The notes under the pieces: model-generated
Seen by the model: the letters and a program-made list of their open reading frames with translations, nothing else
Told to the model about the DNA's origin: nothing
The model's database searches: none
Program-made: the position numbers and the translations under genes
Source: Dyella sp. BiH032
GTDB taxonomy: Bacteria; Pseudomonadota; Gammaproteobacteria; Xanthomonadales; Rhodanobacteraceae
Length of the DNA: 64,000 nt
Assembly: GCF_031954525.1 (NCBI RefSeq)
Contig: NZ_CP134867.1
Location: forward strand, 4,774,001 to 4,838,000
Direction of reading: 5' to 3'
Shown: positions 31,232 through 35,986 of the stretch, one piece after another
How positions within the stretch are numbered: position 1 is the first letter of the stretch
How the letters are laid out: each line of letters begins with the position of its first letter

Positions 31232-31705
31232 TTACTGCCCGCAGGAGGGTTGATCCTCGGCCGGACGGCTCTTGCCCCACTCCAGCACCTTGTACATCAC
31301 CGGCTTCACCGGCTCGCGCGGGCCGCTCTGGCTGACCTGGCTGTAATTGCCCTTGGCGTCGACCAGGTAGACCTGCTCCGGCCCGACCTTGGGCTTCACC
31401 ACCACCTGGTACAGCGCGCCGCTGCGACGGTATTCCTGGATGGTGTTGTCTTCCTTTTGACATTCGGTGATCTGCGCATCGGACGTCTGGCCCGATGCGC
31501 CGGCCGTGGCGGCGGTCGCCTTGGCGGGTGTGCTCTGCGCGGTGGCCGGCTTGGGCGGCTGCGTCGCCTTGACGCCCGGATCGTTCATGCCCGGCGGCGG
31601 CGGGGCCGGCGGCAGCGAGCGCGTGGACTGTGCGAAAGCCGGCGCGGCGGCGGAAACGGCCAGGGCGGCGACACCCAGGGCGACGGCTAGGACGGCAGGT
31701 TTCAT
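31232..31705 (-). CDS. DUF2782-family secreted protein
   Basis: A 157-residue secreted protein with a signal peptide (about 1-25, ending AFA), a Pro/Thr/Ala-rich linker, and a C-terminal core containing EDNTIQEYRRSGALYQVVVK. This matches DUF2782, which often lies beside polA in gammaproteobacteria. Function unknown. It is transcribed away from polA. Its end is 13 bp from the short EamA gene. Confidence 0.72.
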   Translation of the reverse strand: MKPAVLAVALGVAALAVSAAAPAFAQSTRSLPPAPPPPGMNDPGVKATQPPKPATAQSTPAKATAATAGASGQTSDAQITECQKEDNTIQEYRRSGALYQVVVKPKVGPEQVYLVDAKGNYSQVSQSGPREPVKPVMYKVLEWGKSRPAEDQPSCGQ

Positions 31706-31880
31706 GGCGGATCTCCTCGCGATGGGGCCGAGCATAGCAGCGCCGCCTCCCGGCTCCGTGAAGCGCGGCAACATGGCGCCCTGCTCCCGGCGAGGCCGGC
31801 GCATCGGCGTTACACTCGCCCTTCCTCCCGGCCGGCGCACCCGCGTCCCGGCCCCACCCTTCGCGGTCTCCCTGGCTTCC

Positions 31881-34616
31881 ATGTCCAAGCTCATCCTCAT
31901 CGACGGCTCTTCGTATCTCTATCGCGCGTTCCACGCGCTGCCTCCGCTGACCAACACCCACGGCGAGCCCACCGGCGCGCTGTTCGGCGTGGTGAACATG
32001 CTGCGCGCGACGCTGAAGGCGAAACCGGAATACGTGGCCTTCGTCAGCGATGCGCCAGGCCCCACGTTCCGCGATGCGCTGTACGACCAGTACAAGGCGA
32101 ACCGCCCGCCCATGCCGGACGACCTGGGCGCCCAGGTGGAACCCATGCTGGCGATCGTGTCCGCGCTGGGCTTTCCGATCCTGCGCATCACCGGGGTGGA
32201 AGCGGACGACGTGATCGGCACGCTGACCGAGCAGGCGCATGCGCAGGGCATCGAAGTGGAAATCTCCACCGGCGACAAGGACCTCGCCCAGCTCGTGCGG
32301 CCCGGCGTCACCCTGGTCAACACCATGACCAACACCACCATGGACGATGCCGGCGTCATGGAGAAGTTCGGCGTGCGTCCGGATCAGATCGTCGACTACC
32401 TGGCCCTGGTCGGCGACAGCGTCGACAACGTGCCCGGCGTGCCCAAGTGCGGCCCCAAGACGGCCGCGAAGTGGCTGGCCGAGTACGGCACGCTCGACGG
32501 CGTGATCGCCAATGCGGACAAGATCGGCGGCAAGATCGGCGAGAACCTGCGCGCGGCGCTCCCGCAGCTGCCGTTGTCGAAGGAACTGGTGTCGATCCGC
32601 CTGACCGTGCCGCTCGAACAGGGCGTCACCGACCTGGTGCTGCGCGACCGCGACGTCGAGCGCCTGCGCGAGCTGTACATCCGCTACGAGTTCAAGGCGG
32701 CGCTGAAGGAACTGGACGGCACCGCCGAGGTCGCCGCGCCGACGCCGGCAGCGCCGGCCGCCGCCGCTGTTGCGGTGCCCGCGGCCCATCCCGCGGGCGA
32801 CCTGAGCGGGCCGGGCCGCTACGAGCTGGTCACCACCGAGGCCCAGCTCGACGCCTGGCTGGCGAAGCTGCGCACCGCCGAACTGATCGCCTTCGACACC
32901 GAGACCACCAGCATCGATTCCATGCAGGCGGACATGGTGGGCCTGAGCCTCTCGGTAGAAACCGGCGAGGCCTGCTACGTGCCGCTGGCCCACGATTACC
33001 CCGGCGCGCCGCCGCAGCTCGCGCGCGACCACGTGCTCGACCGGCTCAAGCGGATCTTCGAGGACCCGTCGCGGCCCAAGCTCGGCCAGCACGCGAAGTA
33101 CGACATCAACATCCTTTCGCATTACGGCATCGCGGTGCAGGGGCTCAAGCACGACTCCATGCTGGAGTCGTACGTGTGGAACGCCACCGCCACGCGTCAC
33201 GACATGGATTCGCTGGCGCGCAAATATCTCGGCTACGAGACGGTGAAGTACGAGGAAGTGGCCGGCAAGGGCGCCAAGCAGATCTCCTTCTCGCAGGTCG
33301 ACGTCGACACCGCCTGCCGCTACGCCGCCGAGGACGCCGACATCACCCTGCGCCTGCATCGCGCGCTGTGGCCGCTGCTGGAGAGCGAGCCGAAGCTGCG
33401 CAGCGTGTACGAGGACATCGAGATCCCGCTGGTGCCGGTGCTCGCCGGCATGGAGCAGCGCGGCGTGCTGATCGACGTGCCCAACCTGCGCCTGCAGAGC
33501 CAGCAGCTGGGCAAGCGCATGTTCGACCTGCAGCAGCAGGCCTGGCAGGCCGCAGGCCACGACTTCAACCTGGACTCGCCCAAGCAGCTGCAGAGCGTGC
33601 TGTTCGACGAACTGGGCCTGCCGGCCAAGCTGCGCACGCCCACCGGGCAGCCGTCCACCAACGAGGAGGCGCTGGAGGCGATCGCGGAGGAGCACCCGCT
33701 GCCGCGCCTGATCCTGGACTACCGCGGCCTGGCCAAGCTGCGCTCGACCTACACCGACAAACTGGCGGAGATCGTCAATCCGCGCACCGGCCGCGTGCAC
33801 ACCAGCTACCACCAGGGCGCGGTGGCCACCGGGCGCGTGTCGTCGTCCGACCCGAACCTGCAGAACATCCCGGTGCGCACCGAGGAAGGCCGGCGCATCC
33901 GCCAGGCCTTCATCGCACCGGATGGCTGGGTGGTCATGGCCGCCGACTACTCGCAGATCGAGCTGCGCATCATGGCCCACCTGTCCGGCGACGAGGGCCT
34001 GCTGCGCGCCTTCCAGGAAGGCGGCGACGTGCACCGCGCCACCGCCGCCGAAGTGTTCGGCCTGCCGCCCGAGGAAGTCAGCGCCAACCAGCGCCGTGCC
34101 GCCAAGGCCATCAACTTCGGCCTGATGTACGGCATGAGCGCGTTCGGCCTGGCGCGCCAGCTGGGCGTGGACCGCGGCGAAGCCAGCGACTACATGGCCC
34201 GCTATTTCGCCCGCTACCCGGGCGTGCACGCCTTCATGGACGCCACGCGCGAGCAGGCGCACCGCGATGGCTATGTCGAGACCATCTTCGGCCGCCGCCT
34301 GTACCTGGAGAACCTCAAGTCCCGCAACCAGGCTTTGCGCGCCGGCGCCGAGCGCGCGGCGGTGAACGCGCCCATGCAGGGCAGCGCCGCGGACATCATC
34401 AAGCGCGCCATGATCGCGGTGGCCGAGTGGCTCAAGCCGCGCGACGACGCCCACATGCTCATGCAGGTGCACGACGAACTGGTGTTCGAGGTGCGCGAGG
34501 ACGCGGTCGACACGGTTCGCGCCGCCGTGGTCGAGCGCATGTCCGGCGCCGCCCAGCTGCGGGTGCCGCTGCTGGTGGAAGCCGGCGTGGGCGCCAACTG
34601 GGACGAGGCGCACTGA
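31881..34616 (+). CDS. polA: DNA polymerase I
   Basis: A 911-residue PolA with all three modules. The 5' nuclease (about 1-290) begins LILIDGSSYLYRAFHALPP. The 3'-5' proofreading domain (about 320-510) keeps the DxE metal site in AFDTETTSIDSMQADM. The polymerase has motif A MAADYSQIELRIMAHLSGD, motif B RRAAKAINFGLMYGMSAFG and motif C MQVHDELVFEV. It repairs gaps and removes RNA primers. A palindrome and a candidate small RNA follow. Start ATG at 31881 fits the family. Confidence 0.99.
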   Translation: MSKLILIDGSSYLYRAFHALPPLTNTHGEPTGALFGVVNMLRATLKAKPEYVAFVSDAPGPTFRDALYDQYKANRPPMPDDLGAQVEPMLAIVSALGFPILRITGVEADDVIGTLTEQAHAQGIEVEISTGDKDLAQLVRPGVTLVNTMTNTTMDDAGVMEKFGVRPDQIVDYLALVGDSVDNVPGVPKCGPKTAAKWLAEYGTLDGVIANADKIGGKIGENLRAALPQLPLSKELVSIRLTVPLEQGVTDLVLRDRDVERLRELYIRYEFKAALKELDGTAEVAAPTPAAPAAAAVAVPAAHPAGDLSGPGRYELVTTEAQLDAWLAKLRTAELIAFDTETTSIDSMQADMVGLSLSVETGEACYVPLAHDYPGAPPQLARDHVLDRLKRIFEDPSRPKLGQHAKYDINILSHYGIAVQGLKHDSMLESYVWNATATRHDMDSLARKYLGYETVKYEEVAGKGAKQISFSQVDVDTACRYAAEDADITLRLHRALWPLLESEPKLRSVYEDIEIPLVPVLAGMEQRGVLIDVPNLRLQSQQLGKRMFDLQQQAWQAAGHDFNLDSPKQLQSVLFDELGLPAKLRTPTGQPSTNEEALEAIAEEHPLPRLILDYRGLAKLRSTYTDKLAEIVNPRTGRVHTSYHQGAVATGRVSSSDPNLQNIPVRTEEGRRIRQAFIAPDGWVVMAADYSQIELRIMAHLSGDEGLLRAFQEGGDVHRATAAEVFGLPPEEVSANQRRAAKAINFGLMYGMSAFGLARQLGVDRGEASDYMARYFARYPGVHAFMDATREQAHRDGYVETIFGRRLYLENLKSRNQALRAGAERAAVNAPMQGSAADIIKRAMIAVAEWLKPRDDAHMLMQVHDELVFEVREDAVDTVRAAVVERMSGAAQLRVPLLVEAGVGANWDEAH

Positions 34617-34623
34617 GGCAGCG

Positions 34624-34644
34624 TCATTTGGAATTTCCAAATGA
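34624..34644. repeat. 21-bp AT-rich palindrome after polA
   Basis: Arms TCATTTGGAA and TTCCAAATGA flank a single central T, a perfect inverted repeat 8 bp after the polA stop. There is no T-run behind it, so it does not look like a terminator. It sits about 75 bp upstream of the candidate sRNA start, a place where an activator could bind. Confidence 0.75.
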
Positions 34645-34697
34645 ATCGACAATGAATTTTTGCCGGAATCTTGCTGCAACTTTTCCAGCCTCGGACG

Positions 34698-34706
34698 TTC
34701 TATAGA
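34698..34706 (+). promoter_or_regulatory. candidate promoter -10 of the downstream small RNA
   Basis: TTCTATAGA contains two overlapping -10-like hexamers (TTCTAT at 34698, TATAGA at 34701). The -35 side is poor (TTGCTG lies 21-24 bp upstream, TGCAAC 17 bp upstream), so an activator or a low basal rate would be needed. Transcription would start near 34709-34713. Confidence 0.4.
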
Positions 34707-34708
34707 CA

Positions 34709-34833
34709 CGGACGCACGCAACGGCGTCCGCGGCTCACCACCTCCCTGGATGAGCCATCGGCAAGGCGGACCTTCCCCTGGGATCCGCAGCCCCGCCCCG
34801 AGGGTTCCCCCCTAACCCTCGGGGCTTTCTTTT
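34709..34833 (+). ncRNA. candidate sX13-like small regulatory RNA
   Basis: About 125 nt, four consecutive hairpins: CGGACGC/GCGTCCG (34709-34730); GGCTCA/TGAGCC (34732-34756), with inner CCA/TGG leaving a CCTCCC loop; GCGGA/TCCGC (34766-34788) with a TTCCCCT loop; and the terminator CCCCGAGGGTT/AACCCTCGGGG (34796-34824) with a CCCCCCT loop and a T-rich tail. Three C-rich loops and the position after polA match the sX13 sRNA of Xanthomonas, which uses such loops to pair with G-rich mRNA sites. The extra 5' hairpin differs from the Xanthomonas description as I remember it. The ends are estimates from the -10 and terminator. Confidence 0.68.
34796..34833 (+). terminator. intrinsic terminator of the small RNA / polA
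   Basis: Perfect 11-bp stem CCCCGAGGGTT/AACCCTCGGGG, 7-nt C-rich loop, followed by CTTTCTTTT. It also serves as the fourth hairpin of the candidate small RNA. Confidence 0.9.
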
Positions 34834-34951
34834 GCCCGCTTTCCGCCCCCTATCCCGACCCCGGAAAGACGGCTGACGGCCAAAGCCGCTAGCATCCCCG
34901 CCTGACCCGGCCCCGGGTGTCCGGACCGGCTGCAGCAAAAGGTCGCGCCAC

Positions 34952-35986
34952 GTGCAGAAGAAAGGCAAAGCCACTTCCTTCGACATCGCCCACCTGGCGG
35001 GCGTCTCCCAGTCCACCGTGTCCCGCGCGCTGCGCGGCAGCCCGCTGGTGAGCGAGGAAACCCGCCTGCGCATCCAGGCCGCGGCCAACCAGCTCAAGTA
35101 CAAGGTCGACAAGAACGCCTCGAACCTGCGCACCCGCCATTCGGGCACGCTGGCCCTGCTGCTGTTCGAGGACCCGACGGCGGACGATTCGCACATCAAT
35201 CCGTTCTTCCTGTCGATGCTCGGCTCGATCACCCGCGCCTGCGCCCAGCGCGGCTACGACCTGCTGGTCTCGTTCCAGCAGCTCTCCCACGACTGGCACG
35301 CCGACTACGCGGACACCCGCAAGGCCGACGGCATCATCCTGCTGGGCTACGGCGACTACCTCGCCTACCGCGACAAGCTGGAGAAACTGGTCGCGCAGGG
35401 CACGCACTGCGTGCGCTGGGGCGCGGTGCTGCCGGACCAGCCGGACGTTTCCATCGGCTGCGACAACTTCCGCGGCGGCCAGGACATCACCACCCACCTG
35501 CTGGCGCAGGGTTGCCGCCGCATCGCCTTCCTCGGCGACGCCTCCAGCCACTACCCCGAGTTTTTCGAGCGCTACCGCGGCTATGCGGACATGCTGGAGA
35601 AATCCGGCCTGGCCGCCGACCCCGCGCTGCAGGTCAACGGCGAAAGCACCGAGCAGTCCGGCTATACGGCGCTGGAAACGCTGCTGGCGCGCGGCGTCGA
35701 GTTCGATGCGATCTTCGCCGCCAGCGACCTGATCGCGATCGGCGCGATGCGCGCGCTGACCGACCACGGCATGAACATTCCCGCCGACGTGGCCGTCGCC
35801 GGCTTCGACGACATCCCGATGGCCAGCTTCGTCAACCCGCAGTTGACCACCGTGCGCCAGGACACGCGCCAGGCCGGCGAAGCGCTGGTCGAGAACCTGC
35901 TGCGGCTGATCCGCGACGAACCGGCGGAAAGCGCGATGCTGCCGGTGAAGCTGGTAGTGCGGAAGTCGAGCCTGCGCGGGCGTTGA
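34952..35986 (+). CDS. LacI-family transcriptional regulator of the maltodextrin locus
   Basis: A 344-residue LacI/GalR-type repressor. The N-terminal helix-turn-helix reads [21 protein letters not shown] sugar-binding domain follows, with [20 protein letters not shown] and [16 protein letters not shown]. The start is a GTG with an upstream AAAAGG. It is encoded just past the end of the convergent maltodextrin operon and very likely senses a maltodextrin and controls the locus. A LacI-type palindrome occurs twice in the divergent receptor/alpha-glucosidase spacer. Confidence 0.9.

Follow-up and report, generated by a model that had tools for sequence, protein, structure and literature searches.

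A predicted sX13-type small RNA gene 3’ of polA in a Rhodanobacteraceae genome, and related polA-linked elements in other Gammaproteobacteria

The 125 nt at 34709-34833 of the window (the whole 64-kb stretch of DNA that was analysed) very probably form a gene for a trans-acting small RNA homologous to sX13 of Xanthomonas, with its own promoter and terminator. On envelope stress, RpoE (sigma-E) would most likely transcribe the RNA from this promoter; the RNA would run from the base of a conserved 5’ hairpin to the terminator formed by stem-loop 3, and its three C-rich loops would pair with G-rich stretches at ribosome-binding sites, so that translation is blocked. By sequence comparison, we established homology to sX13, linkage to polA, structure at the RNA level and conservation of the promoter motif. 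The wider family to which the element belongs is the more interesting result.

The element 3’ of polA and its homology to sX13

The element lies 92 nt after polA, on the same strand. The preliminary description had placed it between polA and a LacI-type gene, and this is where it is, with the polA stop at 34616 and a LacI-family open reading frame from 34952. The span given there, 34709-34833, was also right, 34709 being the base of the 5’ hairpin. The features are:

31467-34616, plus strand: polA (DNA polymerase I); open reading frame with predicted start, DNA_pol_A over the last 299 amino acids (E 1.1e-135)
34676-34682, plus strand: predicted -35 element GCAACTT of sigma-E (RpoE/AlgU) type, from motif conservation
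34699-34705, plus strand: predicted -10 element TCTATAG of the same promoter, from the motif and the region upstream of the genome’s own rpoE
34709-34833, plus strand: predicted transcript of the sX13-type small RNA, its 5’ end placed from promoter spacing and the hairpin base
34709-34730, plus strand: 5’ hairpin with CAA triloop at 34719-34721, from covariation in f1 and from 22/22 f2 loci
34732-34756, plus strand: stem-loop 1, loop CCTCCC at 34741-34746, from fold and loop count
34766-34788, plus strand: stem-loop 2, loop TCCCCT at 34774-34779, from fold and loop count
34795-34833, plus strand: stem-loop 3, the intrinsic terminator, loop CCCCCCT at 34807-34813, T tract after 34825
34952-35986, plus strand: LacI-family regulator gene (Pfam LacI and Peripla_BP_3), the downstream neighbour, outside the system

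Two sets of relatives are used throughout, f1 and f2, which we take from genus names and Rfam scores to be Rhodanobacteraceae (the family of the window genome) and the Xanthomonas side, respectively.

Folding of the 125 nt gave -68 kcal/mol against -46.1 (sd 3.6) for shuffled sequences (z -6.15; 0/200 as good) and recovered the four consecutive hairpins described previously. Their apical loops are, in order, CAA, CCTCCC, TCCCCT and CCCCCCT; CCTCCC and CCCCCCT agree with the earlier reading, while TTCCCCT was one T too long for what is in fact TCCCCT. CCC stands in three of the loops, as it does in 5 of 1000 dinucleotide shuffles. Loop 1 (CCTCCC) is of 3C, not 4C, type; three C-rich stem-loops of sX13 type are present. 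The last hairpin, taken to be a terminator from the outset, spans 34795-34825 with a T tract behind it and is the sole plus-strand terminator-like site found in 34500-35000. The C-rich loops to which the preliminary description drew attention are kept in relatives, with three per sequence in 46/47 f1 and 16/16 f2 sequences. In four f1 members (L039, L050, L054 and L071), a further C-loop hairpin follows stem-loop 1 ahead of the terminator; the number of loops varies.

At Rfam’s curated cut-offs, no match was obtained anywhere in the 64-kb window. When searched by E-value, the sX13 model (RF02232) matched 34720-34831 over its full length with 38.6 bits (E 1e-5), the gathering score being 50 bits. 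The Rfam/Infernal search proposed earlier returned a full-length match, and one that falls short of the cut-off. Because of this score, the window RNA is not filed here as a member of RF02232; by position it is an orthologue. It is the sole RF02232 match in its own genome at E <= 0.001, to which a second model, R2 (described below), adds one weak place (8.4e-4). Across f1, 112/117 genomes match RF02232, 39 of them over the cut-off, and 5 are without a match; in a draw from the order, 51/151 genomes match, 26 over the cut-off.

A further model, R1, was built from 54 f1 sequences only. It found all 16 f2 sX13 loci searched, from its first position and with E-values of 2.8e-10 or better; thus, homology is recovered by a model that had no sX13 input. 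A DNA pattern for the 5’ hairpin, searched in named genomes, gave at least 80 loci. Of the 80 listed, 63 carry at least three C-rich loops and 58 follow polA on its strand at a distance of up to 600 nt; 55 combine C-loops with the polA place. The full set of hairpin, C-loops and polA place occurs in Rhodanobacter, Dyella, Luteibacter, Frateuria, Fulvimonas and Dokdonella, all Rhodanobacteraceae. Pattern matches listed in clearly unrelated groups (Rhizobium, Planotetraspora, Niabella) had neither C-loops nor the polA place. With the full-length match, its recurrence throughout the family and its place, the original proposal that a Rhodanobacteraceae-like genome encodes a homologue of sX13 downstream of polA is upheld: by sequence model, place and anatomy, the predicted window RNA is an sX13 homologue that scores below the Rfam cut-off and has a putative stress-type promoter.

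Promoter motif and 5’ hairpin

The string GCAACTT-N16-TCTATAG precedes the 5’ hairpin and, given the usual distance from a -10 element to the transcription start, a start is expected near 34709. We take this string to represent the sigma-E/AlgU consensus; the genome’s own rpoE gene (316.9 bits), which has GAACTT-N16-TCATAG upstream, supports this assignment. Searched in strict form, [GC]AACT-N17-TC was present in 26/47 f1 sequences (shuffle mean 0.39, max 3; 21/47 without it) and in 23/39 elements from outside the order (shuffle mean 0.26, max 2; 16/39 without it), and in both sets the string peaks sharply at one spacing. Among f2 sequences it was present in 4/16 (shuffle mean 0.2, max 2), none of which is among those of highest Rfam scores. 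A scan of 34500-35000 found no sigma-70 consensus site.

The 5’ hairpin had been regarded as this genome’s own, which proved wrong: it is common to f1 and to all 22 f2 sX13 loci read. In 54 f1 sequences aligned with MAFFT, 98.6% of cells are paired in the consensus GGAYGC-A-CG-CAA-CG-GCRUCC, a value that drops to 28-51% when the pairing is slid. Five of the eight pairs changed on both sides, and doubly changed cells number 46 versus 15.7 in shuffles (0/500 as high). This covariation indicates that the 5’ hairpin is under selection for pairing. The Rfam sX13 model begins at 34720, within the CAA triloop, and omits the 5’ arm; at the 22 f2 loci (47 to 136 bits with RF02232), the bases before the Rfam start complete a 9-pair stem with CAA triloop, 8 or 9 pairs being formed per locus. 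In the accessible part of the published account of Xanthomonas sX13, the 5’ region is described as unstructured, and the first 14 nt of the Xcv RNA as dispensable for virulence (PMC3771888). Either transcription starts from the hairpin base, in which case the published sX13 end arose by processing or was misplaced, or it is as DNA that the inverted repeat functions. The latter is disfavoured because both arms covary freely.

Spread beyond the order and alternative explanations

Model R2 was built from 64 sequences, mostly of f1 and f2 plus one of f5. It matched 78/369 genomes of the class, 73 of them outside the order. Linkage was counted on the 145 polA places among the matches listed. For 52 of the 73 best outside-order R2 places a polA was listed. 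In 38 of these 52, drawn from 27 families, the distance 3’ of polA is at most 3 kb, with a median of 161 nt counted from where the polA match ends, and 3 of the 38 are on the opposite strand; 14/52 are away from polA, among the polA places listed. Six of the 21 R2 genomes without a listed polA (G431, G474, G266, G411, G518, G606) do have the element beside polA. Therefore, sX13-type RNAs are not confined to Xanthomonadaceae. What is accessible of the Xanthomonas work calls sX13 exclusive to that family and poses as a question whether such RNAs occur at polA loci elsewhere (PMC3771888); for at least 27 further gammaproteobacterial families, the answer is yes.

We also searched 80 stretches 3’ of polA, chosen as those with the outside-order polA genes most like the window’s and hence not a random sample. 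Forty-five of them hold 49 R2 matches at E <= 0.05, versus 1 match in 99 kb around hfq and rpoE, a control made of f1 DNA from other genomes. At least three C-rich loops are present in 37/49 of the matches versus 1.2% of shuffles; R2 favours such loops, while the polA place is independent of it. Pair counts exceeded those of all shuffles, in an alignment that is fitted to the model. The other 35 stretches gave no R2 match at E <= 0.05, and Rfam, run on 34 of them (the 44-base L210 was omitted), returned one anti-hemB match only. Tandem copies 3’ of polA were seen in G411 (L112) and G518 (L119), with four R2 places each, and each of the four G411 copies has its own terminator and a promoter-like string ending TCTGACC. 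Spread outside Gammaproteobacteria is not claimed: 8/200 genomes of a phylum draw match R2, and the three matches from outside the class, L283-L285, are weak, lie at gene ends and have no polA within 1.5 kb.

How do other explanations of the window element fare? A housekeeping promoter could drive constitutive synthesis of an sX13 homologue, the sigma-E-like string being coincidental or minor. Xcv sX13 is indeed described as constitutive in the part of that report available (PMC3771888), and the f2 counts above, with no motif among the top Rfam scorers, fit such an RNA; a coincidental string does not account for a sharp spacing peak in two separate sets or for the same arrangement upstream of the genome’s own rpoE, nor did the sigma-70 scan provide an alternative site, and we consider constitutive expression unlikely. 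Less probable still is that the polA mRNA ends in this element, which would be a C-loop terminator and perhaps a processed 3’UTR fragment with no promoter of its own. The element’s strand, its distance from polA and its terminator, the sole such plus-strand site found in the gap, agree with this. Against it stand the conserved promoter motif, the four tandem copies after one polA, each with promoter-like string and terminator, and the elements that lie opposite to polA (3/38) or elsewhere (14/52); a polA 3’UTR terminator alone was rejected on the first two of these.

Chance likeness, in which GC-rich terminator-like DNA resembles sX13 through C runs only, is the least credible. In one unrelated control, the genome of Thermus composti, RF02232 did give a match short of the cut-off, and several second matches in relatives are weak and terminator-like, but the matches throughout the family, the covariation, the polA linkage and the control count (1 match versus 49) refute it. 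The preferred reading remains an sX13-homologous RNA gene that RpoE would transcribe.

C-loop elements also occur away from polA. In the genome of the window, L289 (about G000:C1:3554488-3554601, minus strand) is a second C-loop RNA candidate, possibly a paralogue; its relatives L056, L057, L059 and L062, with 30-38 bits, appear to be a different C-loop RNA. The candidate carries a 5’ hairpin as well as a stretch rich in G, and a string of GAACT type stands upstream. In the two loci with listed open reading frames, L289 and L057, its neighbours are a nicotinate phosphoribosyltransferase gene (by Pfam, for L289) on one side and, judged by eye, a cytochrome-c-like gene on the other. Two loci, L070 (G050:C1:2278730-2278816) and L287 (G014:C9), hold a C-loop terminator-like element directly behind a coding end; L070 scores 43.7 bits with R1 and has two C-rich loops. 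The second sX13-model matches L055, L063, L065 and L068 were discarded, being terminator-like and either absent with R1 or at 26 bits or less. At L095 (f5), an sX13-type element has the coproporphyrinogen oxidase gene (hemF) as its neighbour and the locus contains no polA; this may be a relocated copy.

Candidate targets and comparison with known polA-linked RNAs

Xanthomonas sX13, whose repressed genes include hfq, depends for repression on its C-rich loops as well as on G-rich motifs in the mRNA; even there direct pairing is not fully proven, because compensatory mutants failed to restore regulation (PMC3771888, accessible part). These experiments make loop-to-ribosome-site pairing in the window RNA probable by analogy (PMC3771888), and the action on Shine-Dalgarno sites proposed for its C-rich loops plausible. 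The genome’s own hfq has GAGGGGAG at its ribosome-binding site. In a set of 31 hfq loci from 41 genomes, of which 30 were readable, GGGG is present at this site in 26/30 family genomes and absent from 4/30, the leaders of one family not being independent. The background is 5/68 among the long open reading frames of the window, with predicted starts, and 5.37% of Xcv genes at positions 8-15 (PMC3771888, in part). Free loops 2 and 3 pair with the hfq leader at -13.0 and -15.4 kcal/mol, respectively, the cost of opening structure not included. From sequence, hfq is the best candidate target of the window RNA. The own hfq leader (L222) also carries, just before the ribosome-binding site, CGUUGCG, which is complementary to CGCAACG of the 5’ hairpin; this string is not kept across the family, and the pairing is a lead only.

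Compared with Xanthomonas sX13 (RF02232), the window RNA has the same place 3’ of polA, the same three C-rich-loop stem-loops, terminator and length, and R1 joins both. The sX13 transcript is reported to measure about 115 nt. The window RNA differs in its predicted sigma-E-type promoter, the strict form of which is missing from 12/16 f2 sequences.

That promoter motif and the polA-adjacent place are ErsA-like traits. ErsA (Pseudomon-1, RF01719) of Pseudomonas is reported, in the accessible parts of two papers, as sigma-22 dependent and encoded in the polA-engB gap (PMC8575079, PMC5819304). The window element scores 18.2 bits with RF01719 (cut-off 50). In the class, 13/369 genomes match RF01719, one over the cut-off (G403); six of the twelve weak matches fall on R2 places, two of these (G397, G507) not by polA. 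Like the window element, the strong ErsA locus (L151) lies 3’ of polA, has C-rich loops and a hairpin ahead of the Rfam start; its promoter string, GAACTT-N17-TC, is one base longer than the N16 of the window. It reaches only 21 bits with R2, and the genome search of G403 gave no R2 match at E <= 0.001. ErsA differs in that its first two stem-loops are separated by a single-stranded U-rich stretch and, as far as the available portions of the reports go, in that it requires Hfq for anr regulation, whereas sX13 is reported to be Hfq-independent.

The name anti-hemB (RF02837, Burkholderia) points to a place by hemB, not polA. Nevertheless, its model matches 3’-of-polA elements in other families: 167/369 class genomes match, 20 over the cut-off, and among the 90 of these taken, 61 have a listed polA, with the match no more than 3 kb 3’ of polA in 41/61 (on the opposite strand in 2). 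Moreover, 36/73 R2 places overlap RF02837 matches. It is these places that carry weight, not the scores, because the short model also matches below cut-off in E. coli, Caulobacter and Deinobacterium. The window element itself scores 19.9 bits (cut-off 49.5), and its genome has no RF02837 match at E <= 0.001. A 105 nt transcript is listed in B. cenocepacia (PMC5688073, in part). Spot 42 (spf; E. coli, Vibrio) is also located 3’ of polA, and the accessible text finds sX13 without similarity to it (PMC3771888); its model gave no match in the window stretch at E <= 5.

A literature search, with most subscription journals outside its reach, found no paper naming both sX13 and ErsA. Place, promoter and intermediates in the sequences compared speak for a common origin of the sX13-type RNA, ErsA and anti-hemB, no single alignment proving it. 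On balance we lean, by a narrow margin of belief, towards one ancient gammaproteobacterial polA-linked gene, sigma-E-driven and with a 5’ hairpin and C-rich loops blocking G-rich ribosome-binding sites, of which sX13, ErsA and anti-hemB would be lineage-specific fragments. Under such an ancestry, the stress RNA would have become constitutive in Xanthomonas and its nearest relatives because the sigma-E promoter was lost there, and the published sX13 5’ end would be processed or misplaced. Our results offer RpoE as a candidate regulator, put the 5’ end in question and bring three Rfam families into what may be one common frame.
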